A DNA stretch of 64,000 bases from Microbacterium sp. LWH3-1.2 (GTDB taxonomy: Bacteria > Actinomycetota > Actinomycetes > Actinomycetales > Microbacteriaceae), in assembly GCF_040675855.1 (NCBI RefSeq), contig NZ_JBEGIK010000001.1, positions 2,852,001 to 2,916,000 of the forward strand, given 5' to 3'. Within the stretch, counting starts at the first letter, position 1. Each line of letters begins with the position of its first letter. Under the pieces are notes generated by a model. That model made no database searches. It saw only the letters and a list, made by a program, of their open reading frames with translations, and was not told where the DNA came from. This document shows, in pieces, positions 34,465 to 55,934 of the stretch. The translations under genes were made by a program, and so were the position numbers.

Positions 34465-34815
34465 TCAGTTGCTCTCGCGCTTCTCCTTGATCTTGGCCTT
34501 CTTGCCACGGAGGTTGCGCAGGTAGTACAGCTTCGCGCGACGCACGTCACCGCGGGTCACGACCTCGATGTGGTCGATGACCGGGGAGTGCACCGGGAAG
34601 GTGCGCTCGACGCCGACCTGGAAGCTGATCTTGCGGACCGTGAAGGTCTCGCGCACGCCGTCGCCCGAGCGGCCGATGACGACGCCCTGGAAGACCTGGA
34701 TACGCGAGCGGTTGCCCTCGGTGATGTTGACGTGCACCTTCACGGTGTCGCCGGCGTTGAACGCGGGGATGTCGGAGCGGAGCGAAGCCGCGTCGACGGC
34801 GTCGAGGATCTGCAT
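34465..34815 (-). CDS. rplS: 50S ribosomal protein L19
   Basis: 116 residues with the L19 signature: [50 protein letters not shown] and [24 protein letters not shown] 34815 is preceded by a purine-rich GAGAGAGA. In most bacteria it directly follows trmD; here trmD is 13 kb away, with trehalose and nitrite genes and map between. Confidence 0.97.
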
Positions 34816-34984
34816 GATCGTCTCTCTCTGCGGCCGCCACAGGTCGACCGCGGGAAGGATGGTAAAGGACTAGAGCGTGCCGCAGGCCTCCGGCATGAAG
34901 CCGTCCAGCTGGTTCCCCTGAGGCAGAACCGGTCAGGGCACAAACATCCATTCTGCCATGGATGCCGCACCCGGCCAAAACGCG

Positions 34985-35479
34985 TCAGTTCGCGGGCGGC
35001 GTCTGCTTCTCCGTGATGACGATGACCTCGCGCGGAGGCGCCTCGGGCGCGTCCGACGGGGCCGGGATGTACGCGACCCCCTCCGACGCGCGCAAGACGA
35101 ACCGCGAGGGTCGCGCCTCACTCCACAGCTGCCACAGCTCGAGCCAGAACAGACCGACGCCGGCGAGGATCGCGACGACCATCACGGGTGCCCACCACGC
35201 TTCCGCGAAGAAGCCGAGTGAGATCACGAGGAGGTGCCAGACCGTGAAGCCCAGGGCGTCCCACCAGGAGACGGCGCGGTGCGCACGAACCGTGCCCCGC
35301 GCACGCACCAGGAGCGTGAGGAGGAGCTGCCACAGGAACACGCCCGGGATGGCGAGGAACAGCACCCACAGGAAGGCCCATCCTCCGGCGTTGAACACGG
35401 CCCATCCGACGAGGAGCCACAGCGGCAGCAGGAAGGCGGCCGGGATCAGCCAGCCGAAGAATGCGCGACGCAGCCACAT
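34985..35479 (-). CDS. Small four-segment membrane protein, function unknown
   Basis: 164 residues; family not recognised. Four hydrophobic, Trp-rich segments (FFGWLIPAAFLLPLWLLVGW, GWAFLWVLFLAIPGVFLWQL, WDALGFTVWHLLVISLGFF, WWAPVMVVAILAGVGLFWL) then a cytoplasmic or external tail of about 45 residues with VAYIPAPSDAPEAPPREVIVITEKQ. Start ATG 35479 is supported by TACCAT seven bases upstream. Divergent from map. Confidence 0.75.
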   Translation of the reverse strand: MWLRRAFFGWLIPAAFLLPLWLLVGWAVFNAGGWAFLWVLFLAIPGVFLWQLLLTLLVRARGTVRAHRAVSWWDALGFTVWHLLVISLGFFAEAWWAPVMVVAILAGVGLFWLELWQLWSEARPSRFVLRASEGVAYIPAPSDAPEAPPREVIVITEKQTPPAN

Positions 35480-35486
35480 GCCACTG

Positions 35487-35492
35487 ATGGTA
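35487..35492 (-). promoter_or_regulatory. -10 box of the four-segment membrane protein gene, leaderless type
   Basis: TACCAT on the minus strand, seven bases (CAGTGGC), then ATG at 35479. Confidence 0.55.
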
Positions 35493-35597
35493 CGCCCGCG
35501 GACGACGCCGTGGTCCGCTTCCGCGTGCCGCAGAACATCCTCCCGGCGCTGCGCCGACCGGTCAGACAGAATGGAGGGGAACGAGAGGATCCCCCAC

Positions 35598-36380
35598 ATG
35601 ATCGAGTTGCGCACGCCTGCCGAGATCGAGGCGATGAAGCCCGCCGGGCGGTTCGTCGCCGAGACCCTCGCGACGCTGCGCGACGAGACCAAGGTGGGGA
35701 CGAACCTGCTCGCGATCGACCGTCGAGCGCACGACCTCATCCGCCGCGCCGGGGCCGAGTCCTGCTACATCGACTACCACCCGTCGTTCGGGGCCCGCCC
35801 GTTCGGGAAGGTCATCTGCACGTCCGTCAACGATGCGGTGCTGCACGGCCTCCCCTTCGACTACACCCTGCGCGACGGCGACCTCGTCTCGCTCGACTTC
35901 GCTGTGTCGGTGAACGGCTGGGTCGCTGACTCGGCTGTCTCGTTCGTCGTCGGCACACCACGCGACGAGGACCTCTCGCTCATCGACACGACCGAACGCG
36001 CGCTGGCCGCCGCCATCGACGCGGCGGCGGTGGGAAATCGCATCGGCGACATCTCGGCGTCGATCGCCGCGATCGCGCACGCCGACGGCTACTCGATCAA
36101 CACCGACTTCGGCGGCCACGGCGTCGGTCGCGAGATGCACGGCGATCCGCACGTCGCGAACGACGGCAAGGCGGGCCGCGGCTACCCTCTCCGCGCGGGT
36201 CTCGTCCTCGCACTGGAGCCGTGGTTCCTGCAGACGACCGACGAGCTCGTCACCGACCCCGACGGCTGGACGCTCCGATCGGCCGACGGCTCCCGAGGCG
36301 CTCACTCCGAGCACACCGTCGCGATCACCGACGGCGGCCCGATCGTCCTCACCGACCGATCGTGGCTCGGCGTCGCCTGA
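35598..36380 (+). CDS. map: Methionine aminopeptidase, type I
   Basis: Removes the initiator methionine. 260 residues from ATG 35598, with GAGAGG upstream. Metal ligands in the expected order: YHPSFGARPFGKVICTSVNDAVLHG, DLVSLDFAVSVNGWVADSAVSF (two Asp), FGGHGVGREMHGDPHV (His), LEPWF (Glu) and AHSEHTVAI (Glu). Stand-alone gene convergent with treZ two bases away. Probably one of more than one map gene in an actinobacterium. Confidence 0.94.
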   Translation: MIELRTPAEIEAMKPAGRFVAETLATLRDETKVGTNLLAIDRRAHDLIRRAGAESCYIDYHPSFGARPFGKVICTSVNDAVLHGLPFDYTLRDGDLVSLDFAVSVNGWVADSAVSFVVGTPRDEDLSLIDTTERALAAAIDAAAVGNRIGDISASIAAIAHADGYSINTDFGGHGVGREMHGDPHVANDGKAGRGYPLRAGLVLALEPWFLQTTDELVTDPDGWTLRSADGSRGAHSEHTVAITDGGPIVLTDRSWLGVA

Positions 36381-36382
36381 TC

Positions 36383-38116
36383 TCACCGGCCTCGGTCCGC
36401 GAGGACAACGGCTGACCGCGCCGGCAGCGCCGCCGTCCCGTCGACCACGTACGCGTCCGGGTCGGTGGCCAGGTGCACGTCGGTGGCCTCCGGAGCGGGA
36501 ACCATGACCGGCTCGTCGGCGAAGTTCACCAGAACCTCGGTCCTGCCACGGCGCAGCCGGAACCAGCGCTGCTCTTCGTCCGCCTCGGCCGTGAAGTCAC
36601 GCAGGTCCGGTTCCGTCAGGTCGGCATGCCCCCGGCGGAGCCGGAGGAGGGATCGATAGAGCGCGAGGATCCGGGCGTGGACACCGGCATCCGTCTCCGA
36701 CCACCGCAGCTTGGAGCGCTGGAACGTCTCAGGATCCTGTGGATCGGGCACCACCGACTCGTCCCACCCCATCGCCGCGAACTCGGCCTTGCGCCCGCGC
36801 GCCGTCGCTTCGCCGAGTTCCGGCTCCGGGTGCGACGTGAAGAACTGCCACGGCGTCGACGCAGCCCACTCCTCCCCCATGAACAGCATCGGTGTGAAGG
36901 GGGTGAGGACGGTGAGGACCGCGGCGATCGCGAGACCGCCCTCGTCCAGCGTCTGCGAGAGCCGGTCGCCCGCCGCGCGATTGCCGATCTGGTCGTGGTC
37001 CTGTGAGAACGTGACCAGTCGCCAGGCCGGGATACGGGGATCGATGGGATGCCCGTGCTCACGCCCCCGGAACGACGACCAGGTGCCGTCGTGGAAGAAC
37101 CCTCGCGTCGAAGCCTTGACGAGAGCGGCCAGGGGGGCGAAGTCGGCGTAATAGCCCGCGGTCTCGCCGGTCAGCGCGACGTGCAGCGCGTGGTGGTAGT
37201 CATCGCTCCACTGCGCCGTCAGGCCGTAGCCGTCGGCCTCACGCGCAGCGATCAGCCGCGCATCGTTCAAGTCGGACTCCGCAATGAGGGTGAGCGGCCT
37301 CCCCAGATGCGCGCTCAGCGCGTCGACCGCCTCGGCCAGCTCCTGCAGGATGTGGATGGGCGAGCGATCCTTGAGCGCGTGGACGGCGTCGAGGCGCAGA
37401 CCGTCGACGTGGTGGTCGCGGAGCCACATCAGCGCGTTCTCGACGATGAAGCGGCGCACCTCGGGCTCGTCGAGGTCGACGGATGAGCCCCACGTGTTCG
37501 ACTCGGCGTCACGCAGGTACGGGCCGAACTCGGGCAGATAGTTGCCGCTGGGGCCGAGGTGGTTGTACACGACGTCCTGGATGACGGCGATGCCGTGGGC
37601 ATGGCACGCGTCGACGAAGCGCTGGTAGGCGGCAGGCCCGCCGTAGGGCTCGTGCACGGCGTACCAGAGCACGCCGTCGTAGCCCCAGTTGTGGACGCCG
37701 TTGAAGCCGTTCACCGGCAGCAGCTCCACGAAGTCGATGCCCAGCTCCACGAGGTGCCCGAGCCGGTCGATCGCGGCATCCAGCGTCCCCTCCGGTGTGA
37801 AGGTGCCGACATGCAGCTCGTAGACGACTCCGCCCGCGAGCTGGCGTCCTGTCCAGGTCGCGTCCGCCCACTCGTGCGCCGCGGGATCGAAGACGGCACT
37901 GAGTTCATGGACGCCACGCGGCTGCCTGCGCGAGCGCGGATCCGGGCGGGCATGGTCCGCGCCGTCGAGGACGAACCCGTACTCGTCTCCATCGTGGAGT
38001 TCGGTTTCGGCGCGCCACCATCCGCCCCCGACGGGTGCCATCACACAATCGTCACCGCGCCCGGCCACACGGAGTGCCACGCTGTCGGCGCGCGGCGCCC
38101 ACACCTCGGGGATCAC
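36383..38116 (-). CDS. treZ: Malto-oligosyltrehalose trehalohydrolase
   Basis: Cleaves the alpha-1,4 bond next to the trehalose unit in maltooligosyl-trehalose, releasing trehalose. 577 residues from GTG 38116, which overlaps the treY stop (GTGA). Motifs: [70 protein letters not shown] (nucleophile), LIAESDLND (acid) and [16 protein letters not shown]. Last gene of glgX-treY-treZ. The N-terminal CBM48-like part begins almost directly at IPEVWAP. Confidence 0.94.
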
Positions 38117-40455
38117 GGGAGCTCTCCCGCGACGAGGAGGGCTACGGGATAGAGGTCCAGCAGCTCCGCCAGCAGGACGTGTCCGGAGTACACGCGTCCC
38201 GTCAGCACATCGGTCGTGGGCCCCGCATGGCGCAGCAGCATCGTGTCCTCCCAGGGTGAGCCGGTGGCTTCGCCCCGCTCCGCCAAGCCGACGGGCAGCC
38301 GTGTGGCCACCGCTACCGCACCGCCACGATCGACGGCGATCGCGTGATCCGCCGCGGCGCCGACGACCGTCATGGGTGTGTATCGGGTGAAGAGCTCGGG
38401 CCGGTCTCGACGCAGTCGCAGCGCGCGGGCGGTGACGAGCAGCTTCGCCGCGCCGGTCCTGTCGACGACAGGCTGTGCTCCTGCGTCGATGAGCGACAGG
38501 AGGCGACGGCGCTCGTCGAAGTCCACGGGTCGACGATTGTCGGGGTCGACCAGGCTCTGCTCCCAGAGCTCGCTCCCTTGGTAGACGTCGGGCACGCCGG
38601 GTCCCGTGAGCTGCAGCAGCTTCGCCGAGAGAGAGTTCGACCATCCGGCGCCCTCGATCTCCGACACGAACGACTCCAGCCGCGCAGCGACGTCGTGGTC
38701 GTCGAACGCCCCGTCGACCACGACGTGCATGCGGCGCTCGAACGCCTCGTCCGGTGCGAGCCACGACGTTGCCTCGGCGGCCTCGCGCGCAGCCTTCTCG
38801 GCGTAGGCGTGCAGGCGCTCCCGGGAGGCCGGCCACGCACCCACGATCGCCTGCCAGAGCAGCGCGTCGAAAGGACCGTGACCGGTGGTGGCAGCATCCG
38901 TCAGCTCTTCGAGGACCTGCGCCCAGCGTGCCGGGATCTCCGCCAGCACCGCGAGCCGCGCGCGCACGTCCTCCCCCCGCTTGGTGTCGTGGGTCGACAG
39001 CGTCGTCATGGAATGGGGCCATGCTGCGTGCCGCGCCGCCTGCGCAGCGTGGAAGCGGTCGACAGGCAGCGCGAAAACCGACGGATCCGCGCCGACTTCG
39101 GTCAAGGTGCCGAGGCGAGTCGCGCGGTAGAACGCGGTGTCCTCGACGCCCTTGGCCATCACCATGCCGCTCGTCTGCTGAAATCGCAGGGCGGCAGGAT
39201 GCTGCGGATCGGCCAGGGCCGGAAGCACGGCGTCGAGCGCACCGGCCAGATCCGGACGGTGCATCCGCGCCGCCGCGGCCGCCTCGTCGAGGTGCTCGCG
39301 TCCGGCGGGCAGGTAGGAACGGTACACGGGGAAGCGTGCGAGCAGCTCGACGAGCGCGTCCTGCGTGGCGGGCTCGTCCGGCACACCCAGGTCGCGCGCG
39401 AGCCGGCGCACCTCTGAGCGCAGGATGCCCTCGCCGACGGCGCGCTTGGTGCCGGCTATCACCTCCGCCCACGGGAGCGCAGCCGGCAGATCGGATGCCG
39501 CGCGCAGCCGTTCGTCGAGCGTGCCCAGTCCCGGCTCGCCGGACGGATCCACCAGAACGCGGTCGATGTCGGCGAGCGTCTCGTAGCCCGTCGTGCCCTC
39601 GGCGGCGAAGAACTGCGGGAGGTCCTCGCCGTGCTCGAGGATCTTCTCGACCGCCACGTATGCGCCGCCCGTGAGCTCCTGCAGCCGCTCGAGGTACTCG
39701 ACGGGAGCGCGCAGGCCGTCCGGATGGTCGACTCGCAGGCCGTCCACCAGCCCCTCGGCGAACCAGTTGCCGACCTCCGCGTGGGTCTCGTCGAACACGG
39801 CGCGATCTTCGACCCGCACGGCCGCCAGGCTCGACACCCCGAAGAAGCGGCGGTAGTTCAGGTCGTACGCCTCTCTCCGCCAGTCCATGAGCTCGTAATG
39901 CTGTCGATCGTGCACATCCAGGACATCGTCACCGACGGCGGCACTGCCCGGCGCGAGCGGGTACCGGTGGTCGTAGTAGCGGAGCTCGCCGCCCTCGACG
40001 CGCAGCGCTCCCGAGGAGGCGGCGGCACCGACATCCTCGCCGAGGACCGGGAGGCGCACCCTGCCGCCGCCGAACGCCCAGTCGATATCGAATGCGGCCG
40101 CGTGACGCGACGCGGGCCCGTGGGCAAGGACGTCCCACCACCAGGCGTTCTGCTCGGCGCGCGCCACGCCGACGTGGTTCGGGACGATGTCGACGAGGAT
40201 GCCGAGCCCCGCGTCGTGGAAGACACGCGAAGCGCGCTCGAGCGCGCGGCGGCCCCCCCGAGCCGGGTCGACGGTGGTGGGGTCCACGACGTCGTAGCCG
40301 TGGTCCGAGCCCTCCGACGCCGTGAGGATGGGTGACAAGTACACCCAGTCCGCCCCGAGATCGCTCAGGTACTGCTGCAGGACAGCGGCGTCGTCGAGGG
40401 TGAACGACTGTCGGATCTGGAGGCGGTACGTGGATCTCGGTCGAGGCGTCGGCAC
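38113..40455 (-). CDS. treY: Malto-oligosyltrehalose synthase
   Basis: Converts the reducing end of maltodextrin into a trehalosyl group by intramolecular transglycosylation. 780 residues, within the family range. Starts [19 protein letters not shown], then [68 protein letters not shown] (nucleophile Asp), GVEDTAFYR and [31 protein letters not shown]. Between the second glgX (10-base gap) and treZ (4-base overlap). Confidence 0.95.
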
Positions 40456-40465
40456 GGCGGTCCTC

Positions 40466-42679
40466 TCAGCGGGAGAGCTCGGGACGGGGGGCGGCGCCCG
40501 GAACCTCGTCGATGCCGGCGACGCTCGTCACGGCAAGCGACGCGGCGACCGAGTGATCGATCTCGGGCTCGGGCAGCTCATGCTCGCGGAGCACCATGAG
40601 GGAACGCCCCGGCACCAACAGCGTGGAGCCGGGCTCCACCGGCGCGGTGTTCGCGTGCAGACCGGCGGTGTCGACGATGACATCCCATTCAGGGCTGAAC
40701 TCCACGTCGGGGATGACGAAGTCGACCACGTCGTCGCCCGCGTTGAACAGCACGATGAAGTGGTCGTCGGTGATCGGGTCTCCGCGGCGATCCCGCTCCC
40801 GGATGCCGTCGCCGTTGAGGAACACGGCCACCGCGCGCCCGAAGCCCGAGTCCCAGTCCTCGGGCTGCATCTGCGACCCGTCCGGACGCGCCCAGGCGAT
40901 GTCGGGGATGGGCGCGCCCTCCTCGCGGCGCACAGGACGGCCGTCGAAGAAGCGACGCCGGCGGAAGGTCGGGTGCTCGCGGCGCAGGCGTGCCAAGGCG
41001 GCCGTGAACTCGACCAGCGGCTGATCCGGGGCCGACCAGTCCACCCACGTGATCTCGTTGTCCTGTGCGTAGCCGTTGTTGTTCCCCTGCTGGGTTCGGC
41101 CGAGCTCGTCGCCGTGCAGCAGCATCGGCACCCCCTGCGACAGCAGCAGCGTTGCGATGAAGTTGCGCTGTTGGCGCGCGCGCAGCGCCAGGACGTCCGG
41201 GTCGTCCGTCGGTCCTTCGACGCCGCCGTTCCAGGAACGGTTGTCGTCGGCACCGTCGCGGTTGTCTTCCCCGTTGGCCTCGTTGTGCTTCTCGTCGTAA
41301 GAGACGAGATCGCGCAGCGTGAACCCGTCGTGCGCCGTGACGAAGTTGATGGATGCCACCGGACGCCGGCCGGAATGCTCATAGAGATCGGACGAGCCGG
41401 TGAGCCGCGAGGCGAACTCCCCCAGCGTCGCAGGTTCACCCCGCCAGAAGTCTCGGACGGTGTCGCGGTACTTGCCGTTCCACTCGGTCCACTGAGGGGG
41501 GAAGTTGCCGACCTGGTAGCCGCCCGGCCCGACGTCCCACGGCTCCGCGATGAGCTTGACCTGCGACACCACCGGGTCCTGCTGCACGAGTTCGAAGAAC
41601 GCCGCCAGGCGGTCGACTTCGTAGAACTCGCGCGCAAGCGTCGATGCGAGGTCGAACCGGAAGCCGTCCACGTGCATCTCGAGCACCCAGTAGCGCAGCG
41701 AGTCCATGATGAGTTGCAACGTGTGCGGGTTGCCGACGTTGAGGCTGTTCCCGGTGCCGGTGTAGTCCGTGTAGTAGCGCTTGTCGTCGTCTTCCAGCCG
41801 GTAGTAGGCCTCGTTGTCGATGCCCCGCATCGACAGAGTGGGTCCCAGATGGTTGCCTTCGGCCGTGTGGTTGTACACGACGTCGAGGATCACCTCGATG
41901 CCGGCGGCGTGGAGCGCCTTGACCATCGCCTTGAACTCCTGCACCTGCTGGCCGCGCTGTCCGCTCGACGAGTAGGTGTTCTGAGGGGCGAGGAAGGCGA
42001 TCGTGTTGTAGCCCCAGTAGTTCGAGAGTCCCTTCTGCTCCAACACCGAGTCGTCGACGAACTGGTGCACCGGCATCAGCTCGATCGCCGTCACGCCGAG
42101 CTTCTGAAGGTGCTCGATGATGGCGGGGTGCGCGATGGCGCTGTACGTCCCGCGGATGTCCTCCGGGATCGACGGATGCAGCTGGGTGAGCCCTCGGACA
42201 TGCGCCTCATAGATGAAGGACTCGGCGTACGGCGTCTTCGGTTGCCGGTCTCCGCTCCAGTCGAAGTACGGATTCACGACGACGCCCATCATCTGCTGCG
42301 CGGCGGAGTCCTCGTCGTTGCGTGAGTCCGGATCGCCGAATTCATAGCCGAACACGGACTGACCCCACTGGATCTGCCCCTCGACGGCCTTGGCATACGG
42401 ATCGAGCAGGAGCTTGTTCGGGTTGAACCTCTTGCCCTGCGAGGGGTCGTAGTCGCCGTGGACGCGGTAGCCGTAGCGCTGGCCGGGCTGCACGGACGGA
42501 ACGTATCCGTGATGGACGAAGGCGTCCACGTCAACGAGCTCGACGCGGGTCTCGCCGCCGTCATCGTCGAACAGGCACAGCTCGACGCGTTCGGCCCCCT
42601 CGCTGTACAGAGCGAAGTTGGTGCCGCTTCCATCGAAGGTCGCACCAAGCGGGTAGGGGGATCCGGGCCAGATCTGCAT
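40466..42679 (-). CDS. glgX: Glycogen debranching enzyme (GlgX/TreX type, second copy)
   Basis: 737 residues starting MQIWPGSPYPLGATFDGSGTNF, the standard GlgX opening. CBM48 domain, then GH13 barrel with LDVVYNHTAEGN, GFRFDLASTLARE (nucleophile), LIAEPWDVGPGGY (acid) and NFVTAHDGFTLRDLVSYDEKHNE. As first gene of glgX-treY-treZ it should debranch glycogen to feed TreY, the role called TreX. Retains the N-terminal part that the first copy at 10220 shows in altered form. ATG 42679 is preceded by TGGAGCG, and a TAGGGT box lies 26 bases upstream. Confidence 0.94.
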   Translation of the reverse strand: MQIWPGSPYPLGATFDGSGTNFALYSEGAERVELCLFDDDGGETRVELVDVDAFVHHGYVPSVQPGQRYGYRVHGDYDPSQGKRFNPNKLLLDPYAKAVEGQIQWGQSVFGYEFGDPDSRNDEDSAAQQMMGVVVNPYFDWSGDRQPKTPYAESFIYEAHVRGLTQLHPSIPEDIRGTYSAIAHPAIIEHLQKLGVTAIELMPVHQFVDDSVLEQKGLSNYWGYNTIAFLAPQNTYSSSGQRGQQVQEFKAMVKALHAAGIEVILDVVYNHTAEGNHLGPTLSMRGIDNEAYYRLEDDDKRYYTDYTGTGNSLNVGNPHTLQLIMDSLRYWVLEMHVDGFRFDLASTLAREFYEVDRLAAFFELVQQDPVVSQVKLIAEPWDVGPGGYQVGNFPPQWTEWNGKYRDTVRDFWRGEPATLGEFASRLTGSSDLYEHSGRRPVASINFVTAHDGFTLRDLVSYDEKHNEANGEDNRDGADDNRSWNGGVEGPTDDPDVLALRARQQRNFIATLLLSQGVPMLLHGDELGRTQQGNNNGYAQDNEITWVDWSAPDQPLVEFTAALARLRREHPTFRRRRFFDGRPVRREEGAPIPDIAWARPDGSQMQPEDWDSGFGRAVAVFLNGDGIRERDRRGDPITDDHFIVLFNAGDDVVDFVIPDVEFSPEWDVIVDTAGLHANTAPVEPGSTLLVPGRSLMVLREHELPEPEIDHSVAASLAVTSVAGIDEVPGAAPRPELSR

Positions 42680-42900: not shown

Positions 42901-45558
42901 ATGGCCCACCGCGACCGCGTCAACAGCCGGAAACACGACGCTGACGCTGCTGCAACATCACCCGCGTACGGTGACGGCATGAGTGAGACCCCTGCCCTCG
43001 GCACCCACGTGGTGATCGTCGGCGCGGGCATGGTCGCCCACCGCTTCGTCGAGAGCCTGCTCAGCCGGGCCGGCGAGGAGTGGCGCATCACGCTCATCGG
43101 CGAGGAGGAGCGCCACCCCTACGACCGGGTGGGACTGACCGGGTTCTTCGCGGGCGCCTCCCCCGAAGACCTGGAGCTCGAACGCGCAGTGCTCGACGAC
43201 GAGCGCGTGCGGTTCCTCCGCGGCGAGGCCGTCACCCGCATCGACCGCGGCGCGCGTCGCGTGACGACGCGCAGCGGCACGAGCGTCGCCTACGACCGTC
43301 TCGTCCTCGCGACAGGCTCCTACGCCGCACGTCTGGCCGTCGACGGCTTCGGCCTCGAAGGCTGTTTCGTGTACCGCACCCTCGACGACGTCGAGGAGCT
43401 CGAGGAGTTCGTGCAGCGCCGCTCGGCCGAGCTCGGGCGTCCGCTCGTCGGCACCGTCATCGGCGGCGGACTCCTCGGACTCGAGGCCGCGGGCGCCCTG
43501 CAGGGCCTCGACGTCGACTGCACGGTGGTCCAGTCCTCCGACCGGCTGATGTCGGCGCAGCTGGATCTCCCCGCAGGCAACGCCCTGCGGCGCCTCATCG
43601 AATCGCGCGGCATCGCGGTCAAGACCGAGGCGGTCACGACCCGCCTCGACCCCGACCGTTCCGGGCAGGTGACGGGCCTCGAGTTCCGCGACGGCACCTA
43701 CGCGCGCACCGACGTCGTGGTCTTCACTGTCGGCGTGCGGCCTCGCGACGAGCTCGCGCGCACCGCGGGCCTCGACGTGCACCCTCGCGGCGGCGTGCTG
43801 ATCGACGCCGGCTGCCAGACGTCCGATCCCCGCGTGCTGGCGATCGGCGAGGTCGCCAATTACGACGGAATGTGCGTCGGCCTCGTTGCTCCCGGCTATG
43901 CCATGGCCGAGGTCGCCGCGACGCGCCTGCTCGGTGGCGAGGCATCCTTCCCCGGTTACGACCTGTCGACGAAGCTCAAGCTGTCGGGCGTGGATGTTGC
44001 CAGCTTCGGCGACGCCTTCGCCGAGACGCCTGGCGCGCTGGACGTCACCTACGCCGATCCCGTGGCCGGCGTCTACAAGAAGCTCGTGCTCTCGGACGAC
44101 GCGAAAACGCTGCTCGGCGGCATCCTCGTCGGCGACGCATCGGCGTACGGGTCGCTCCGGCCGCTCGTCGGCGGCGCGCTGGGCGGTGACCCTGCCGCCT
44201 ATCTCATGCCCGAGGGCGGCGTCGCCGCACCGACCGGCGACCTTCCCGACGAGGCGCTCGTGTGCTCGTGCAACAGCGTCACGGCGGGGGCCATCCGCCA
44301 CGCGGTGCACGAGGAGGGCTGCACGGATGTCGCGGCCATCAAGTTCTGCACGAAGGCCGGGGCCGCGTGCGGTTCGTGCGTGATGATGGTCAAGAAGATC
44401 GTCGGCACCGAGCTCGCGAAGTCCGGAGCGGCGCTCAGCAACGCGATCTGCGAGCACTTCGACATGTCGCGTCGCCAGCTGTTCGACGCCGTGCGGGTGT
44501 CGGGTCTTGAGACCTTCAGCGCCGTCATCGAGCGCTTCGGCACCGGTCGCGGCTGCGACATCTGCAAGCCGGCCCTCGCCAGCATCCTGTCGACGCTCGT
44601 GCGGGGCCACGTGCTCGAGGGCGAGAACGCCACTCTGCAGGACACCAACGACCACGTGATGGCGAACCTCCAGAAGGACGGCAGCTACTCGGTGGTCCCC
44701 CGCATCCCCGGCGGCGAGATCACGCCAGAGGGGCTGCTGGTCATCGGCCAGGTCGCGAAGGACTTCGGTCTCTACACGAAGATCACGGGCGGCCAGCGGA
44801 TCGATATGTTCGGCGCCCGCCTCGAGCAGCTGCCCGAGATCTGGAAGCAGCTCGTGGACGCCGGCTTCGAGTCCGGCCACGCGTACGGCAAGTCGCTGCG
44901 CACGGTGAAGTCGTGCGTCGGCTCGACGTGGTGCCGCTATGGCGTGCAGGACTCGGTCGGCATGGCGGTGCAGCTCGAGCTGCGCTACCGGGGGCTCCGC
45001 TCGCCGCACAAGCTGAAGCTCGGCGTCTCGGGCTGCGCCCGGGAGTGCGCGGAGGCGCGCGGCAAGGACGTCGGCGTGATCGCCACCGAGGCGGGCTGGA
45101 ACATGTACGTCGGTGGCAACGGCGGCTTCACGCCCCGCCACGCGGTCCTGCTCGCCGAGGGACTCAGCGACGATGAGCTCCTCACGGCCATCGACCGGTT
45201 CCTGATGTACTACATCTTCACCGCCGACCGCCTGCAGCGCACTGCGCCGTGGTTCGAGGACCTGGACGGCGGCATCCAGGGTCTGCGCGACGTCATCTTC
45301 GAGGACAGTCTCGGCATCTGCGCCGACCTCGACGCTGCGATGGCGGCCCACCTCGACTCGTACGAGGACGAGTGGAAGGCGACCCTCGAAGACCCTGAGA
45401 AGCTCCGCCGGTTCGCGTCGTTCGTCAACGCGCCGACCACGCCCGACCCCTCGCTGGCCTACACCGCCGAGCGCGGCCAGCCCCGACCCGCCACCGAGGA
45501 TGAGCGCGCCGACTCGCGCGTCCTCATCGCCGGAACGACCCTGGAGGTGCGCCGATGA
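42901..45558 (+). CDS. nirB: Nitrite reductase (NADH) large subunit
   Basis: Cytoplasmic assimilatory nitrite reductase, reducing nitrite to ammonium with FAD, Fe-S clusters and sirohaem. 885 residues. Order: FAD/NAD(P)-binding domain (HVVIVGAGMVAHRF; GTVIGGGLLGLEAAGALQ), BFD-like [2Fe-2S] domain (CSCNSVTAGAI ... FCTKAGAACGSC), a second CxxC region (GRGCDICKPAL), then the nitrite/sulfite reductase halves with CVGSTWCRYG and LGVSGCARECAEARGKD carrying the [4Fe-4S]-sirohaem cysteines. ATG 42901 has AGGAGG at good spacing. This adds 26 residues over the usual N-terminus, and an alternative ATG at 42979 exists. Overlaps nirD by four bases. Confidence 0.95.
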   Translation: MAHRDRVNSRKHDADAAATSPAYGDGMSETPALGTHVVIVGAGMVAHRFVESLLSRAGEEWRITLIGEEERHPYDRVGLTGFFAGASPEDLELERAVLDDERVRFLRGEAVTRIDRGARRVTTRSGTSVAYDRLVLATGSYAARLAVDGFGLEGCFVYRTLDDVEELEEFVQRRSAELGRPLVGTVIGGGLLGLEAAGALQGLDVDCTVVQSSDRLMSAQLDLPAGNALRRLIESRGIAVKTEAVTTRLDPDRSGQVTGLEFRDGTYARTDVVVFTVGVRPRDELARTAGLDVHPRGGVLIDAGCQTSDPRVLAIGEVANYDGMCVGLVAPGYAMAEVAATRLLGGEASFPGYDLSTKLKLSGVDVASFGDAFAETPGALDVTYADPVAGVYKKLVLSDDAKTLLGGILVGDASAYGSLRPLVGGALGGDPAAYLMPEGGVAAPTGDLPDEALVCSCNSVTAGAIRHAVHEEGCTDVAAIKFCTKAGAACGSCVMMVKKIVGTELAKSGAALSNAICEHFDMSRRQLFDAVRVSGLETFSAVIERFGTGRGCDICKPALASILSTLVRGHVLEGENATLQDTNDHVMANLQKDGSYSVVPRIPGGEITPEGLLVIGQVAKDFGLYTKITGGQRIDMFGARLEQLPEIWKQLVDAGFESGHAYGKSLRTVKSCVGSTWCRYGVQDSVGMAVQLELRYRGLRSPHKLKLGVSGCARECAEARGKDVGVIATEAGWNMYVGGNGGFTPRHAVLLAEGLSDDELLTAIDRFLMYYIFTADRLQRTAPWFEDLDGGIQGLRDVIFEDSLGICADLDAAMAAHLDSYEDEWKATLEDPEKLRRFASFVNAPTTPDPSLAYTAERGQPRPATEDERADSRVLIAGTTLEVRR

Positions 45559-45947
45559 CCCTCGTCGAGCCGCAGACGGACGAGTACACCGCCCCGGACG
45601 GATGGGTGCGCGTGTGCGCTCTGGACGACCTCGAGGTGGAGCGCGGCCGCGCCGCGCTCCTCGGTGGCACGCAGATCGCGCTCTTCCTCCTGCACGGCCC
45701 CGACGGGTCGGCGGGCCGCGTCCACGCCGTCTCGAACCTTGACCCCTACAGCCACGCGCACGTCATCTCGCGCGGCATCGTCGGCACCCGGCAGGACGTT
45801 CCCACGGTCGCCTCGCCGATGTACAAGCAGGTGTTCGACCTGCGCACCGGCGTCTGCCTCGACACGCAGGGCAAGGAGCCGAAGAGCCTGCACGTCTGGC
45901 CGGTGACCGTCGACGCCGGGCACGTCCTGGTCCGCTGGGACGAGTGA
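45555..45947 (+). CDS. nirD: Nitrite reductase (NADH) small subunit
   Basis: 130 residues with a Rieske-like fold that lacks the cluster ligands, as is normal for NirD: VRVCALDDLEVERGRAALL, YSHAHVISRGIVGTRQDVPTVASPMYKQVFDLRTGVCLD and SLHVWPVTVDAGHVLVRW. Only one Cys, so no [2Fe-2S] centre. ATG lies inside the nirB stop (ATGA), and its own stop overlaps cobA, so nirB-nirD-cobA are tightly coupled. Confidence 0.94.
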   Translation: MTLVEPQTDEYTAPDGWVRVCALDDLEVERGRAALLGGTQIALFLLHGPDGSAGRVHAVSNLDPYSHAHVISRGIVGTRQDVPTVASPMYKQVFDLRTGVCLDTQGKEPKSLHVWPVTVDAGHVLVRWDE

Positions 45948-46720: not shown

Positions 46721-47853
46721 GCTCCACCCCCCGCCCCACCCTCTCGGCCGCACTCGACGGCTGCACGATCGTCATCGCTGTCGATCGTCGCTCCTCGGAG
46801 CTTGCCGCCGCGCTCGAGCGTCACGGCGCGCAGGTGCGCCACGCGCCCGCGCTGACGATCGTGCCGCACATCGACGATGACGCACTGATCGCCGCGACGC
46901 GCAAGCTCATCGCGCTGCAGCCCGACGTGGTCGTCGCGACGACCGGCGTGGGCTTCCGCGGCTGGATGGAGGCCGCCGACGAAGCCGGGCTCCTCGACGA
47001 CCTCCACCTCGCCCTGTCGCGCGCCCAGATCGTCGCGCGCGGGCCCAAGGCTCGCGGCGCGATCCAGCAGGCGGGCCTCACCGCCGACTGGGTGGCGGAG
47101 TCCGAGACCTCGGCCGAGCTGGGAGAGTTCCTCCTCGCCGAGGGCGTCGCGGGCAAGCGCGTAGCGGTCCAGCACCACGGCTCCGGGGCCGATGGCCTCG
47201 ATGAGCTGTTCGAGGGCGCGGGCGCGGAGGTCGTGAGCCTCACCGTGTACCGCTGGGGTCCTCCTCCCGACCCCGCCGCGGTGTCGCGCTCCGTCGTCGC
47301 GGCGGCGCAGGGCGAGGTCGACGCGGTCCTGTTCACGTCCGCCCCCGGCGCCGCGGAGTGGATCGCTGCCGCGCGGGGCGAGGGCGTGCACGACGAGATC
47401 GTCGACCGCGAGGCGGAGGGACGCCTTCTCATGGCCGCCGTCGGACCGATCACCGCCGGGCCGCTGCAGGATGCGGGCCTTCACCCGCTGATCGCCGAGC
47501 GTGGCCGCCTCGGCTCGCTGGTGCGGGCTGTCGTCACGCACTTCGGCGGGGGTGGCGCGGCGTCACTGGCGACCTCGGCGGGACGCCTCGAACTGCGCAG
47601 CACGGGCATCGTGCTCGACGGCCGCCACATCCCCCTGTCGCGAAGCGCCACCGACATCGTCGCCGCGCTGTTCGACGCCCATGGCGGCGTCGTGTCGCGA
47701 CCTCGCCTGCAGGCGGCGCTTCCGCGATCGGGTGAGAACACCCACGCCGTGGAGATGGCCGTCGCACGGCTCCGCGAGTCGCTGGGGGTCCCCGACCTGG
47801 TGAAGACCGTGGTCAAGCGCGGCTACCGGCTCAACGTCATCGAATCTGCTTGA
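46717..47853 (+). CDS. nnaR: HemD-like transcriptional regulator of nitrate/nitrite assimilation (NnaR type)
   Basis: 378 residues. Residues 1 to about 265 resemble uroporphyrinogen-III synthase (CTIVIAVDRRSSELAAALERHGAQV, VAVQHHGSGADGLDELFEGAGAEV, VDAVLFTSAPGAAEW). Residues from about 285 form an OmpR-type winged helix (LDGRHIPLSRSATDIVAALFDAHGGVVSRPRL ... MAVARLRESLGVPDLVKTVVKRGYRLN). In Streptomyces and Mycobacterium smegmatis proteins of this make-up (NnaR) act with GlnR to activate nirB, narK and nitrate reductase genes. Position as last gene of nirB-nirD-cobA supports that role. TTG start overlaps the cobA stop (TTGA). It might still have synthase activity, but the wHTH favours regulation. 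Confidence 0.85.
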   Translation: MSSTPRPTLSAALDGCTIVIAVDRRSSELAAALERHGAQVRHAPALTIVPHIDDDALIAATRKLIALQPDVVVATTGVGFRGWMEAADEAGLLDDLHLALSRAQIVARGPKARGAIQQAGLTADWVAESETSAELGEFLLAEGVAGKRVAVQHHGSGADGLDELFEGAGAEVVSLTVYRWGPPPDPAAVSRSVVAAAQGEVDAVLFTSAPGAAEWIAAARGEGVHDEIVDREAEGRLLMAAVGPITAGPLQDAGLHPLIAERGRLGSLVRAVVTHFGGGGAASLATSAGRLELRSTGIVLDGRHIPLSRSATDIVAALFDAHGGVVSRPRLQAALPRSGENTHAVEMAVARLRESLGVPDLVKTVVKRGYRLNVIESA

Positions 47854-47896: not shown

Positions 47897-48592
47897 TCAG
47901 GCGGCGGGATCCCGATCCGGCAGCAGGTCGGGCCGGTGCGCCCGGGTGCGCTCCAGACTCTGCTCGTGCCGCCACGAGGCGATCGCACCGTGGTTGCCGC
48001 TGAGCAGCACCGGCGGCACCTCGTGCCCGCGCCACTCGGCGGGCTTCGTGTAGCTCGGGTACTCGAGCAGGCCGAGCTCGTGCGATTCCTCCACGAGGCT
48101 CTCAGGGTTGCCGACGACGCCGGGGATGAGGCGCGACACGGCCTCGATCACCGCCATCGCGGCCACCTCTCCCCCGTTGAGCACATAGTCGCCGAGGCTC
48201 ACGAGCCGCACTCGCCCGCGCGCCGAGTAGTGGTCGACGACGCGCTGATCGATCCCTTCGTAGCGTCCGCAGGCGAACACGAGGTGCTCCTCGCCGGCGA
48301 GCTCGCGCGCCATCGGCTGGGAGAACAGCTCGCCGGCGGGCGACGGCACCAGCAGCACGGCGTCGTCGCTCAGCACCTGGTCGAGGGCCTCACCCCAGGG
48401 TTCCGGCTTCATCACCATGCCGGCGCCGCCTCCGTAGGGGGTGTCGTCGACGGTGCGGTGCCGATCGTGTGTCCAGTCCCGCAGGTCGTGGACGTGCATG
48501 TCGAGGATGCCCCGATCACGGGCCTTCCCGATCAGCGAGACGCCGAGCACGTCGAAGAACGTCGGGAAGATCGTGACGATGTCGACGCGCAT
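47897..48592 (-). CDS. trmD: tRNA (guanine-N1)-methyltransferase
   Basis: Makes m1G37 in tRNAs, preventing frameshifting. 231 residues, SPOUT family. Starts [17 protein letters not shown], then [34 protein letters not shown] and [31 protein letters not shown], the trefoil-knot SAM site. It sits alone on this strand between nnaR and narK, separated from its usual partners rimM and rplS. TAGACT seven bases before the ATG indicates its own leaderless promoter. Confidence 0.95.
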
Positions 48593-48599
48593 GCCTTCG

Positions 48600-48605
48600 A
48601 GTCTA
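48600..48605 (-). promoter_or_regulatory. -10 box of trmD, leaderless type
   Basis: TAGACT on the minus strand, seven bases (CGAAGGC), then ATG at 48592. Gives the isolated trmD gene an independent promoter. A GlnR-like box lies just upstream (48618-48633). Confidence 0.6.
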
Positions 48606-48617
48606 GGAGCCTGGCGT

Positions 48618-48633
48618 GTTTCCGACGTGTGAC
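48618..48633 (-). promoter_or_regulatory. GlnR-like box in the trmD-narK gap
   Basis: On the minus strand GTCAC, six bases, GAAAC: an exact match to the actinobacterial GlnR pattern GTnAC-n6-GAAAC. Located between the trmD -10 box and the narK promoter, so it could affect either gene. narK is the expected target from known GlnR biology. Confidence 0.6.
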
Positions 48634-48672
48634 GGGGCGTCCACCTCGGGCCGCGGCGTCCGTGATCGAGAA

Positions 48673-48727
48673 GTGACGGAGAGGTAACCGGGTGGGCAGA
48701 CGGGCCGAAACACGGGGTCCCTAACGT
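48673..48727 (+). promoter_or_regulatory. narK promoter with GlnR-like elements
   Basis: GTGAC (48673-48677), six bases, GTAAC (48684-48688), then GAAACAC (48707-48713), eight bases, and a TAACGT -10 box (48722-48727). GTGAC-n6-GTAAC has the 11-base period of a GlnR half-box pair. The GAAACAC-N8-TAnCGT core is the same as before nirB. Predicted leader about 40 bases, with AGGGAGG before the ATG. Confidence 0.6.
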
Positions 48728-48773
48728 GGAGACACACTCACCCCCAAGTGTCTGCTCACCTCAGGGAGGCGCC

Positions 48774-50207
48774 ATGACCACGACCGATACGCCGTCGATG
48801 ACGGATACCGCTGATCCATCCCGCACCATCGCCCCGGCCGATGCGCCGGTCACCCTCACCCATCGCCCGGGCCGCTGGATCGACGGCTGGAATGCGGAGA
48901 ACTCCACGTTCTGGGCGGCCTCGGGCCGCGCCATCGCGCGGCGCAACCTCGGCTGGTCCATCTTCGCCGAGTTCCTCGGGTTCATCATCTGGCAGCTGTG
49001 GAGCATCGTCGTCGTGATGCTGCCGGCCGCCGGCTTCCAGCTCACCAGCTCGGAGTCGTTCTGGCTCATCTCGCTGCCGAGCCTCGTCGGCGCCACGCTG
49101 CGCTTCCCGTACACGTTCATGGTCGCGATCTTCGGCGGCCGCAACTGGACGATCGTGTCGGCGGGCCTGCTGCTCATCCCGGCCGTGCTCCTCGGCATCG
49201 TCGTCGCGAACCCCGAGACCCCGTTCGGCGTGCTGCTGCTCGTCGCGGCCCTCGGCGGCGTCGGCGGCGGCAACTTCGCGAGTTCGATGGCCAACATCAC
49301 CTACTTCTTCCCGCAGAAGGAGAAGGGCTGGGCCCTCGGCCTGAACGCCGCCGGCGGCAACCTCGGTACCTCGGTCGCGCAGTTCGCCGTGCCGATCGCG
49401 GTGACCATCGGCGCCGGCGCGACCCTCAATATCTCGCTCGCCGGCTGGATGTGGATCCCGCTCATCCTCGTCGCGATGTGGGGCGCATGGCGCTACATGG
49501 ACAACCTGTCGTCGGCCAAGGCGGACTTCGGCGGCTCCGCCGCGGCGCTGCGCGAACCTCACCTGTGGATCATGGCGGTGCTCTACATCGGCACCTTCGG
49601 CTCGTTCATCGGCTTCGCGAGCGTCTTCCCGAAGCTCATCGCCGACCAGTTCCCCGAGTTCTCGACGATCCAGGTCGGACAGGCGGCCGTCTCGCTGGCC
49701 TTCCTCGGCGCGCTCGTCGGCTCGCTCGCCCGCCCGTATGGCGGAAAGCTCGCCGATCGGTTCGGCGGCGCACGCGTCACCGTCGGCGCCTTCTCGATCA
49801 TGGCTCTCGGCGCGCTGGCGCTCGTCTGGACGCTGCCGATGCACAACTTCGTGGTGTTCCTCGCGTGCTTCCTCGTGCTGTTCGCGGCCACCGGAATGGG
49901 CAACGGCTCGACCTACCGCATGATCCCGAGCATCTTCGCCGCGCGCTCTCAGGCGCGGGGGTACGAGCCGGGCACGCCGGAGTCGACGAAGATGATCCGC
50001 AAGGCGGCCGCAGCTCTCGGACTCATCTCGGCGATCGGCGCCTACGGCGGCTTCCTCGTGCCGCAGGTGCTCAACGCCTCGCAGCTCGCCACGGGCGGCT
50101 ACCAGGCCGCGTTCTACGGCTTCGTCGCCGCATACGTCGGGCTGCTGCTGCTCACGGTGTTCGTGTACGTGATCCCGCGCACCTCGCTGGCCAAGCAGCG
50201 CATCTGA
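48774..50207 (+). CDS. narK: Nitrate/nitrite transporter, major facilitator superfamily
   Basis: 477 residues from ATG 48774, preceded by AGGGAGG. Cytoplasmic N-terminus of about 50 residues (PGRWIDGWNAENSTFWAASGRAIARRN), then about 12 membrane segments. Nitrate-porter signature motifs: GGVGGGNFASSMANITYFFPQKEKGWALGLNAAGGNLG in the first half, and ARPYGGKLADRFGGARVTVGAF and GMGNGSTYRMIP in the second. Likely imports nitrate for the cytoplasmic nitrate reductase encoded convergently. Has its own promoter with GlnR-like boxes and ends at a strong hairpin. Confidence 0.93.
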   Translation: MTTTDTPSMTDTADPSRTIAPADAPVTLTHRPGRWIDGWNAENSTFWAASGRAIARRNLGWSIFAEFLGFIIWQLWSIVVVMLPAAGFQLTSSESFWLISLPSLVGATLRFPYTFMVAIFGGRNWTIVSAGLLLIPAVLLGIVVANPETPFGVLLLVAALGGVGGGNFASSMANITYFFPQKEKGWALGLNAAGGNLGTSVAQFAVPIAVTIGAGATLNISLAGWMWIPLILVAMWGAWRYMDNLSSAKADFGGSAAALREPHLWIMAVLYIGTFGSFIGFASVFPKLIADQFPEFSTIQVGQAAVSLAFLGALVGSLARPYGGKLADRFGGARVTVGAFSIMALGALALVWTLPMHNFVVFLACFLVLFAATGMGNGSTYRMIPSIFAARSQARGYEPGTPESTKMIRKAAAALGLISAIGAYGGFLVPQVLNASQLATGGYQAAFYGFVAAYVGLLLLTVFVYVIPRTSLAKQRI

Positions 50208-50221
50208 CGCGCGTGCTCAGC

Positions 50222-50260: not shown

Positions 50261-50464
50261 CATGTGTGAGCGATGATGGCCGCGCGCCGCGACCCTCCCG
50301 GCGGGCATGTCCCGCGCTCGCTCGCAAGACCCGGCACGCGCAGCGGGACTCGGGACAGGAGGGCGAGGCATCGGGACATGCCTGCCCTGGGGTTCTGCCC
50401 TGTCAGCGCGATCCGGGTGGGCGGGACGGCGCTCGCGCGGCCGACGACGGCCGGCGCTGCGGAC

Positions 50465-54508: not shown

Positions 54509-54515
54509 GCCTTCG

Positions 54516-54569
54516 ATGGTCCCGGACGGAGGTTCCGGGCCGTTTCCCGTCGTGTTTCCCGCAGGTCAC
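54516..54569 (-). promoter_or_regulatory. Promoter region of the nitrate reductase fusion with a GlnR-like box
   Basis: On the minus strand GTGAC (54565-54569), six bases, GAAAC (54554-54558): an exact GTnAC-n6-GAAAC match. A second GAAAC follows at 54542-54546. A possible -10, GACCAT (54516-54521), lies seven bases before the ATG at 54508. The GAAAC-to--10 distance is 37 bases, exactly two helical turns more than in the nirB and narK promoters. An inverted repeat, CCCGGA/TCCGGG (54521-54526 and 54534-54539), sits between box and -10. Confidence 0.55.
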
Positions 54570-54609
54570 ATCTGCCGCACGGTTCCCCGAGAGGGGTCGT
54601 GAAGTGGCG

Positions 54610-55266
54610 TCAGGCGGAGGGGCCCTCCGAGGCGTCCGGCGACGTCGGAGGCGTCTCGTCGGCCTCGTCGGGGATCTCTTCGAAGAGGCCGGCCGGCGGC
54701 GTCACGATCACGCGGCCGCTCGCGATGTCGACTTCGGGCACGATGGCCTTGACGAAGGGCACCAGCACCTCTTCATCGCGGACCTTCACAATGAGCAGGT
54801 CCTGCGCGGGAAGGTGGTCGACGCGCGCGACCTTGCCGACGGTCTCACCGTCGCGGACGACGTCGAGACCCACGAGCTGGTGGTCGAACCAGGCATCCTC
54901 CTCGGCGGGCGAGGCCTGCATGTCTTCGTCGACCCAGAGGATCGCGCGGATGAGCTCCTCCGCCGCGTCGCGGTCCTCGACACCCTCGAAGAAGGCGACG
55001 GGGTGGCTGTTCATCCACCTGAACTCGCGAACCGTGAGCGGCTTGCCGTGCCACGGTGACGACTCGGGCACCTGAAGGGTGAAGGTGGCGCCGGGGACGA
55101 AGCGACCCTCGGGGTCGTCGGTGTACAGCTCGAGCTTGATCGCGCCCTTCAGACCGTGCGCCTTCACGAGGCGACCGACCCGGAGCTGCGTCTTGCCCGT
55201 CGGGGGAACTGCGTTCACGGGCTTGCGGGCGTCTGCGCCCGGCCCCGTGGTCTCTTCGCCTGACAC
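54610..55266 (-). CDS. rimM: Ribosome maturation factor RimM
   Basis: Helps assemble the 30S head by binding S19. 218 residues from GTG 55266. N-terminal RimM barrel (LRVGRLVKAHGLKGAIKLELYTDDPEGRF), PRC-barrel-like C-terminal domain (DHQLVGLDVVRDGETVGKVARVDHLPAQDLLIV, VPFVKAIVPEVDIASGRVIVTPPAGL), then an acidic tail of about 20 residues. One base after the KH-protein stop. Normally followed by trmD; here the next gene on the strand is the nitrate reductase. Confidence 0.94.
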   Translation of the reverse strand: MSGEETTGPGADARKPVNAVPPTGKTQLRVGRLVKAHGLKGAIKLELYTDDPEGRFVPGATFTLQVPESSPWHGKPLTVREFRWMNSHPVAFFEGVEDRDAAEELIRAILWVDEDMQASPAEEDAWFDHQLVGLDVVRDGETVGKVARVDHLPAQDLLIVKVRDEEVLVPFVKAIVPEVDIASGRVIVTPPAGLFEEIPDEADETPPTSPDASEGPSA

Positions 55267-55267
55267 C

Positions 55268-55498
55268 TCAGTCGTCCGCCACGTCGACGCGCACGCGGCG
55301 TCCGTCGGCGAGGGCGGAGATGAGGGTGCGCAGGGCTTTGGCCGTGCGGCCGCCACGCCCGATCACGCGACCCCGGTCTTCGGGGTGGACGTGCACCTCG
55401 AGCACGTCGCCTCGCGGCGAGGTGCTCGAGTCGATGCGGACATCGTCCGGGTGATCGACGATCCCCTTGACGACGTGTTCGAGCGCGGCGGCGAGCAA
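55268..55498 (-). CDS. khpA: KH-domain RNA-binding protein (KhpA)
   Basis: 76-residue single KH domain: MLAAALEHVVKGIVDHPDDVRI, the GRVIGRGGRTAKALRTLI loop (GxxG) and a C-terminal RVRVDVADD. Lies between rpsP and rimM as in most Gram-positive genomes. KhpA with KhpB influences cell division and small-RNA biology in firmicutes. TTG start four bases after the rpsP stop. Confidence 0.92.
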   Translation of the reverse strand: MLAAALEHVVKGIVDHPDDVRIDSSTSPRGDVLEVHVHPEDRGRVIGRGGRTAKALRTLISALADGRRVRVDVADD

Positions 55499-55502
55499 CG
55501 GA

Positions 55503-55934
55503 TTACTCGGCGGACTCGGCGGCGTCGTCGGCCGCGTCGGTCGCCTCGTCGGCGGGAGCCTCGGCGGGCTCCTCGGCCTTCTTCTCAGTCTTCGGCTTGA
55601 TGACCGACTTCTTGGACGTGTCGGCCTCGTAAGCGGCCTTGTCCTCGCGGGTCTTCACGGTCGAGACCGCGTTCTTGTCACCCTTGAACTGACCCCAGTC
55701 GCCGGTCAGCTTGAGGATGGCGAGCACTTGCTCGGTCGGCTGGGCGCCGACCGACAGCCAGTACTGCGCACGGTCGGAGTCGACCTCGATGAACGAGGGC
55801 TCCTCGGTCGGGTGGTACTTGCCGATCTCCTCGATGACACGACCGTCGCGCTTGGTGCGCGAGTCGGCCACGACGATGCGGTAGTAGGGCGCACGGATCT
55901 TGCCGAGGCGCTTGAGACGAATCTTGACAGCCAC
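55503..55934 (-). CDS. rpsP: 30S ribosomal protein S16
   Basis: 143 residues from GTG 55934, with AGGAGA upstream. The first 80 residues are the S16 core ([41 protein letters not shown]). The remaining 60 are a Lys/Ala/Glu/Asp-rich tail ([28 protein letters not shown]) that is a common actinobacterial extension. First gene of rpsP-khpA-rimM. Confidence 0.96.

Follow-up and report, generated by a model that had tools for sequence, protein, structure and literature searches.

Locus organization around trmD

We analyzed a window of 64,000 nucleotides from Microbacterium sp. LWH3-1.2 (contig NZ_JBEGIK010000001.1, positions 2,852,001 to 2,916,000), in which trmD, encoding the tRNA m1G37 methyltransferase, lies among nitrate and nitrite genes instead of within the rpsP-rimM-trmD-rplS operon. 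This core translation gene is usually tied to ribosome synthesis, and m1G37 methylation has roles in reading-frame fidelity and in the decoding of proline-type codons. The observed gene order is rpsP-khpA-rimM, nasC-narK, trmD, nnaR-like-cobA-nirD-nirB, glgX-treY-treZ, map, and rplS-lepB-rnhB, with DUF2469, comM, dprA, and xerC beyond rnhB; identities and strands of the locus genes were checked with Pfam and NCBIfam models (Table 1). As a preliminary description of this DNA had stated, the operon members keep their ancestral order on the minus strand and are split twice, by 6.0 kb between rimM and trmD (nasC on the minus and narK on the plus strand) and by 13.1 kb between trmD and rplS, so that rimM-trmD-rplS is not contiguous here and the trmD operon of the window is not intact. 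The same description placed trmD between plus-strand nitrate genes, which is correct for narK and for the HemD-type regulator but not for nasC. Among named relatives, M. hibisci, M. jejuense, and M. helvum are nearest by trmD.

The nasC product is a single protein of 1347 residues, in which a molybdopterin nitrate reductase is fused to a CysJ-like diflavin reductase (flavodoxin/FAD/NAD). The regulator adjoining trmD combines, by Pfam, a HemD domain with an OmpR-type DNA-binding domain; this make-up is the one described for NnaR (PMC6277429), and the name is taken from that source and not from a family model. The content of guanine plus cytosine (GC) is 0.702 in ten flank genes, 0.707 in the six nitrogen genes, 0.691 in the three trehalose genes, and 0.703 in trmD, with values of 0.88-0.91 at third codon positions (GC3). 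The comparison of block and flanks proposed in the preliminary description thus does not set the block apart, and composition is uninformative about a foreign origin. Among the open reading frames (ORFs) scanned at 34-56 kb there was no Pfam match to an integrase or transposase, the window contains no tRNA, and its composition is uniform; the locus therefore lacks the hallmarks of a mobile genomic island (integrase or transposase, tRNA target, atypical composition). An Rfam search of the window at the gathering threshold gave no match. In a search for a terminator between rimM and nasC, the best fold was no better than shuffled sequences (z 0.23), so read-through from rpsP into nasC is possible.

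Table 1. Genes and regulatory features of the trmD locus, with window coordinates
Feature	Position	Strand	Basis
rpsP (ribosomal protein S16), first gene of the upstream operon remnant	55503..55991	minus	Pfam Ribosomal_S16
khpA	55268..55498	minus	Pfam KH_KhpA-B
rimM, start uncertain	54610..55263	minus	Pfam RimM N and PRC domains
Putative composite operator before nasC, TCAC-N18-GTG-N8-GTGAC-N6-GAAACA	54553..54602	minus	one of two genome matches
nasC, assimilatory nitrate reductase fused to CysJ-like flavodoxin/FAD/NAD reductase, 1347 aa	50465..54508	minus	Pfam; NCBIfam below curated equivalog cut-offs
narK, nitrate/nitrite transporter of the major facilitator superfamily (MFS)	48774..50207	plus	Pfam MFS_1; NarU/NarK models below cut-off
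GlnR-type box facing narK	48673..48688	plus	sequence pattern
NnaR-type palindrome TCAC-N17-GTG between the two GlnR-type boxes	48642..48665		motif from PMC6277429
GlnR-type box GTCAC-N6-GAAACA facing trmD; 16-base core ends 25 bp before the trmD ATG	48617..48633	minus	
TAGACT, -10-like hexamer 7 nt before the trmD ATG	48600..48605	minus	19-row alignment
trmD (tRNA m1G37 methyltransferase), allele type A	47897..48592	minus	TrmD equivalog models over cut-off; trmD tree
nnaR-like regulator	46717..47853	plus	Pfam HEM4 and Trans_reg_C; NF005568
cobA, uroporphyrinogen-III C-methyltransferase	45944..46720	plus	Pfam, NCBIfam
nirD	45555..45947	plus	Pfam Rieske_2
nirB	42901..45558	plus	Pfam; NCBIfam over cut-off
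glgX	40466..42679	minus	TIGR02100 over cut-off
treY	38113..40455	minus	TIGR02401 over cut-off
treZ, start uncertain	36383..38104	minus	TIGR02402 over cut-off
map, methionine aminopeptidase, start approximate, ORF opens at 34962	35601..36380	plus	TIGR00500 over cut-off, residues 214-465
rplS	34465..34815	minus	Pfam
lepB	33556..34386	minus	Pfam
rnhB	32900..33646	minus	Pfam

The ancestral operon

For comparison, up to 20 kb around trmD were retrieved from 51 of 58 Microbacterium genomes, from 47 nirB-bearing genomes of other genera of the family, and from 22 of 39 genomes of other families of the order; 80 named loci were added and 14 duplicates removed, giving 186 loci in which distances were measured between tblastn matches. 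The layouts leave out seven Microbacterium genomes of low completeness (G016, G023, G030, G039, G044, G046, and G055) and 17 of the 39 genomes of the same order. The sample holds one genome per species, picked partly for nirB; since the other-genus genomes were selected for this gene, the frequency of empty sites cannot be read from them. The rimM-trmD gap is at most 56 bp in all 22 other-family genomes fetched, and the trmD-rplS gap is at most 774 bp in 21 of them, with 3.9 kb in G075. Gene order across these genomes shows the contiguous rimM-trmD-rplS operon to be the ancestral state, contiguous in the ancestor of the order, in agreement with the preliminary description. The presence of map between trmD and rplS is widespread in Microbacteriaceae; it was not found there in, e.g., two Aurantimicrobium loci.

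Nitrogen genes beside trmD in other genomes

At a threshold of E <=1e-100, nirB is present in 50 of 199 sampled genomes of the family and in 58 of 98 relatives; matches near 40% identity or in split pieces within the order (e.g., G065, G083, and G089) were not entered as nirB, and among the 36 nirB-bearing Microbacterium genomes G002 and G040 have partial matches of ~410 aa that may not be nirB. Of these 36 genomes, 13 have the gene within 25 kb of trmD, 13 have it farther away, and 10 on a different contig; the corresponding numbers are 22, 9, and 16 for the 47 genomes of other genera and 0, 5, and 8 for the 13 nirB-bearing genomes of other families. For comparison, 50 kb makes up ~1.5% of a genome of 3.5 Mb. 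The strand of nirB is opposite to that of trmD in all 35 near cases. Its side differs, being downstream of trmD in 13/13 near Microbacterium cases and upstream in 20/22 others; the two other-genus cases with nirB downstream (G176 and G238) group with named Agromyces. In Microbacterium G013, trmD lies inside the cluster, in the order rimM, hemDR, cobA, nasC, narK, trmD, nirD, nirB, map.

The nirB tree (92 rows) contains a 50-row group, with a Shimodaira-Hasegawa-like approximate likelihood ratio (SH-aLRT) support of 89, that holds all Microbacterium sequences except G035 together with six other-family and a few other-genus sequences, and a separate 39-row group (100) with most other Microbacteriaceae genera, three other-family sequences, and G035. 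Thus, two nirB lineages reached one neighborhood. On these sequence comparisons, the nitrogen genes at trmD are the outcome of more than one insertion event, and their presence at the locus changes at least seven times on the best Microbacterium flank tree. The preliminary description had suggested that whole functional modules were inserted at two junctions, which agrees with these results.

Several other genera match the nasC nitrate reductase at only 32-38% at the locus, some of them beside a nirB-like match of ~30%, so that two kinds of nitrate reductase share one neighborhood. In G043 (L127, 8618-15037), genes for MoCF_biosynth and MoaE proteins, a solute-binding protein, and a permease resembling molybdate uptake lie between trmD and the nir genes, which places cofactor supply at the same locus.

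Conflicting histories of trmD and its flanks

The trmD tree separates Microbacterium into two clades, A with 28 rows (support 88/95) and B with 40 rows (100/100), whereas in the concatenated-flank tree, which leaves out G043 and L041 with too few flank columns, Microbacterium forms one clade (100) in which A and B are intermixed. Identities to the window diverge in both directions, flanks vs. trmD being 0.87 vs. 0.73 in G047 and 0.83 vs. 0.73 in G011, and 0.70 vs. 0.86 in G004 and 0.63 vs. 0.81 in G057. Single-gene trees here are short. Approximately unbiased (AU) tests were run on 30 chosen rows (12 A, 14 B, and 4 outgroup). The flanks are incompatible with a single clade of trmD type A (p-AU 1.7e-8), and trmD in turn is incompatible with two clades of the flank tree, G048+G018+G037 (p-AU 1.6e-4) and G004+G033+G034+G014 (3.8e-4). 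The type of trmD changes at least six times on the best tree. By nitrogen genes at the locus, the 66 rows comprise 18 of type A with and 8 without them, and 1 of type B with and 39 without.

The pair G048 and G018 illustrates the proposed exchange best. Their flanks are colinear with 82.5-84.8% nucleotide identity, and colinearity is lost close to the rimM end and resumes directly beyond trmD; between these breaks, G048 carries nasC-narK-trmD(A)-hemDR-cobA-nirD-nirB, and G018 only trmD(B). TrmD and RimM each share 74% identity between the two genomes, vs. 82-99% for the nine other flank proteins compared. The trees thus show a conflict of histories: as far as these alignments tell, the history of trmD differs from that of both flanks, and the gene is no passive survivor in place. 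The preliminary description had regarded trmD as merely surviving in the middle of the insertions, a view not supported in light of the allele conflict, the at least seven changes in nitrogen genes, and the promoter-like region, similar to the operator before nasC, where narK adjoins trmD (see below). The independent move of trmD, which that description named as speaking against its own reading, is therefore borne out in part.

A putative operator between narK and trmD

As the cluster splits rimM from trmD, trmD needs a promoter of its own. The 181-bp region between narK and trmD contains, read towards trmD, TCAC-N17-GTG-N8-GTCAC-N6-GAAACA-N11-TAGACT-N7-ATG, and hexamers similar to TAGACT occur in the 19 aligned rows. 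The same elements are present in the putative operator before nasC, with an equal step of 11 bases between GTG and the GlnR box. The operator at trmD is two-sided, because on the other side of its palindrome another GlnR-type box points towards narK. For M. smegmatis, the published motifs are Gn2AC-n6-GnAACA for GlnR (PMC3662644) and ctCAC(a/c)-N16-(t/g)GTGag for NnaR (PMC6277429). The trmD-facing box, upstream of the trmD start, fits the former motif; the spacing from CAC to GTG is 17 in the window vs. 18 published and 18 before nasC, with degenerate outer letters. Most NnaR-regulon transcripts studied in M. smegmatis appear leaderless, with starts downstream of the GlnR motif (PMC6277429), and TAGACT would be the -10-like hexamer of a predicted leaderless trmD transcript. 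Both regulators are encoded in the genome, the nnaR-like gene at the locus itself and a GlnR ortholog (L276) that matches 8hih (5e-78, named transcriptional regulatory protein) and 4o1h (2e-26, named GlnR).

The placement of these elements is narrow. A strict GlnR pattern has three matches in 64 kb, all in the trmD and nasC operator regions, and 33 matches in 2.36 Mb of relatives' loci. It occurs within 250 bp upstream of trmD in 9 of 12 narK-adjacent loci, eight times facing trmD at 25-28 bp and once facing narK only, and in none of the loci where the nearest upstream gene is rimM (0/88), nirD (0/19), or undetermined (0/1). In the 19-row alignment, a trmD-facing box stands 25-28 bp from the trmD start in 12 rows and at 44 bp in a further row. 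Because the composite pattern was derived from the trmD and nasC sites of the window, its two matches in the 3.94 Mb genome arise by construction; the information lies only in the absence of a third match and in the recurrence of the pattern elsewhere. The reversed pattern has no match in this genome. In 72 other genomes there are 14 composite matches in 11 genomes (7 at trmD, 3 at nasC, and 4 unassigned) and none of the reversed pattern. A slightly looser version finds 13 matches in 120 loci (7 trmD, 4 nasC, 1 narK, and 1 nirD), none elsewhere, and none in one base-shuffled copy. The composite precedes trmD in 7 of 12 fetched narK-adjacent genomes and in 6 of 8 named loci, or 5 of 6 once L033 and L039, which repeat counted genomes, are removed. 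One composite match (G034:C1:1619275-1619323) lies 21 kb from nirB of G034.

The direction of a predicted control by GlnR could be either. GlnR both activates and represses, in one case through binding at the start site (PMC4140684), and the trmD-side box would overlap the -35 region, which makes repression under nitrogen limitation as possible as activation.

A possible second route through cbiX in other genera

Nineteen genomes of other genera that carry the second nirB lineage upstream have a CbiX-family gene of the nitrite cluster (PF01903; assignment tested in one of the 19) directly before trmD on the same strand. The cbiX-trmD gap is 9-93 bp in 18 of the 19 genomes and 420 bp in one; with trmD so closely behind cbiX, it is probably read with the nirD-cbiX unit.

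Interpretation and alternative explanations

We propose, with a probability of roughly 0.6, that nitrate/nitrite genes have repeatedly landed and been exchanged at the rimM/trmD/rplS junctions of Microbacteriaceae, with trmD under a captured promoter. A block including trmD would pass between strains by homologous recombination through the conserved flanks (the rimM side and the map/rplS side), the incoming block replacing the resident trmD. In the clade of the window, trmD is separated from the rpsP operon and faces narK across a symmetric putative operator, with one NnaR-type palindrome flanked by a GlnR box on each side, laid out like that of nasC; trmD would be transcribed as a leaderless mRNA from the captured promoter. 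GlnR and NnaR would then adjust the TrmD level to nitrogen or nitrate supply, in either direction. The wider claim, that trmD has left the ribosomal operon for a nitrogen-assimilation regulon, both in the Microbacterium clade and, via nirD-cbiX linkage, in other Microbacteriaceae, so that nitrogen or nitrate would set tRNA methylation and, through it, frame maintenance and proline-type codon decoding, is a tentative suggestion to which we give somewhat less than even odds.

Several observations weigh against these proposals. The AU test does not reject a single clade of all Microbacterium trmD (p-AU 0.42); an origin of type B outside the genus is therefore not required, and exchange within the genus suffices. 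In independent pairs, of which there are too few, trmD type and nitrogen genes show no significant link (median p 0.375-0.5). Nor do the two always travel together, as G032 and G038 have type A trmD in common (92%) and differ in nitrogen genes; G032 keeps cbiX beside trmD, which suggests a loss of nitrogen genes there. Microbacterium G035 has nirB of the other lineage, and the nirB groups within Microbacterium broadly track flank groups by eye, so that long residence with relocation fits as well as repeated transfer. On the regulatory side, besides the derivation of the composite from the window's own sites, the pattern is absent from 5 of the 12 narK-adjacent loci (G013, G038, G019, G120, and G043), although the GlnR box is retained in G013 and G038; a simple scan for sigma-70 promoters was negative before trmD, and only 4 of the 19 upstream-side genomes have strict GlnR boxes between nirB and nirD. 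The trmD-side box may serve narK only.

This last point is part of a simpler explanation, a plain repeated insertion of nitrogen and trehalose modules in tolerant junctions of a relaxed operon in which trmD stayed in place and the GlnR/NnaR sites belong to narK. It accounts for nitrogen genes at both junctions and also elsewhere in the genome, for the unrelated cargo described below, and for the GlnR-type box at 48673 that faces narK; it does not account for the trmD alleles in conflict with the flanks, for the regular distance of the trmD-facing box from the trmD start, or for the lack of a third composite match beyond trmD and nasC, and we consider it rather unlikely. The arrangement could instead be ancestral in Microbacteriaceae and lost many times, apparent gains being losses combined with local rearrangements. 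The upstream clusters of the second nirB lineage do occur in many genera in one order, and cbiX (G032) and a formate/nitrite transporter gene (Cryobacterium) stand at the locus with no nirB there; however, the two nirB lineages are distinct and differ in their usual side, and G003 combines a cluster beyond treZ with trmD type B, which leaves such a history unlikely. Hidden paralogy would explain both the switching of sides with orientation kept and the existence of two old alleles: an early duplication of trmD (e.g., by integration with trmD as a homologous arm) would have left copies A and B around the cluster, and lineages would have kept one of them, with or without the cluster. We regard it as improbable, because each of the 51 Microbacterium genomes used has one trmD match, and a tblastn search with nine cluster proteins in 185 segments of empty junctions yielded no more than two weak matches, of narK to segments with an MFS gene (MFS identity tested in L186 only).

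The proposed exchange site resembles several known systems. It shares genes, strand, and order with the ancestral bacterial trmD operon, and differs from it in being cut twice, with trmD alone behind its own promoter-like region. Fixed chromosomal sites that take accessory modules are known as genomic hot spots, and the likeness lies in recurrent accessory cargo between conserved genes; in contrast, no integrase, transposase, tRNA, or composition shift was found at the window site, and the anchor here is an essential gene whose allele also switches. With the GlnR/NnaR nitrate regulon of Mycobacterium and Streptomyces (PMC6277429, PMC3662644, and PMC10704036) the locus shares a GlnR box, beside a candidate NnaR palindrome with a spacing one base shorter, as well as a predicted leaderless-type start, putative targets that include narK and nir genes, and the presence of both regulators. 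The difference is that a core tRNA-modification gene would, judging by sequence alone, be on the receiving side; the word trmD is absent from the main text of the M. smegmatis regulon paper, and no title or abstract in the literature searched links trmD to nitrate genes in Microbacteriaceae or to actinobacterial GlnR.

If true, the proposal would provide a clear natural case of an essential gene changing regulons, with two routes to nitrate assimilation, one of them with a two-sided operator of GlnR/NnaR type. Translation accuracy would be tied to nitrogen supply, and tuning of m1G37 to nutrients would be directly testable. If trmD depends on a promoter within the cluster, losing the cluster would carry a cost, and the operator would bind the cell to it; the locus suggests one way in which a dispensable pathway could become difficult to lose, namely by holding the promoter of an essential gene. 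It also illustrates that an essential-gene allele in a syntenic position may have a history unlike that of its neighbors.

Trehalose genes and other cargo at the junctions

In G051, G047, and L056, which have no nitrogen genes at this place, the glgX-treY-treZ genes stand between trmD and map, so the trehalose block is a separate insertion; in G003 they lie between trmD and the nir genes. In the window, an open frame (34962-35600) precedes map, and an opposite-strand ORF (34985-35740) without Pfam match lies between rplS and map; locus L168 has a 174-aa ORF without Pfam match on the rplS side. In Cryobacterium, a formate/nitrite transporter gene (PF01226; L062, 9124-9987) occupies ~1 kb between rimM and trmD with no nirB at the site, and a related gene, assigned by clustering, occurs in L063, L070-L072, and L094, which are Cryobacterium loci without nirB there; it is possibly a remnant of a lost nitrite cluster. 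Unrelated cargo at the junctions includes genes for pyruvate kinase, an MFS transporter, and a DUF559 protein. The pyruvate kinase gene lies between trmD and map in Microbacterium sp. 67-17 (L081, 10743-12242), and a related ORF is present in two further loci.

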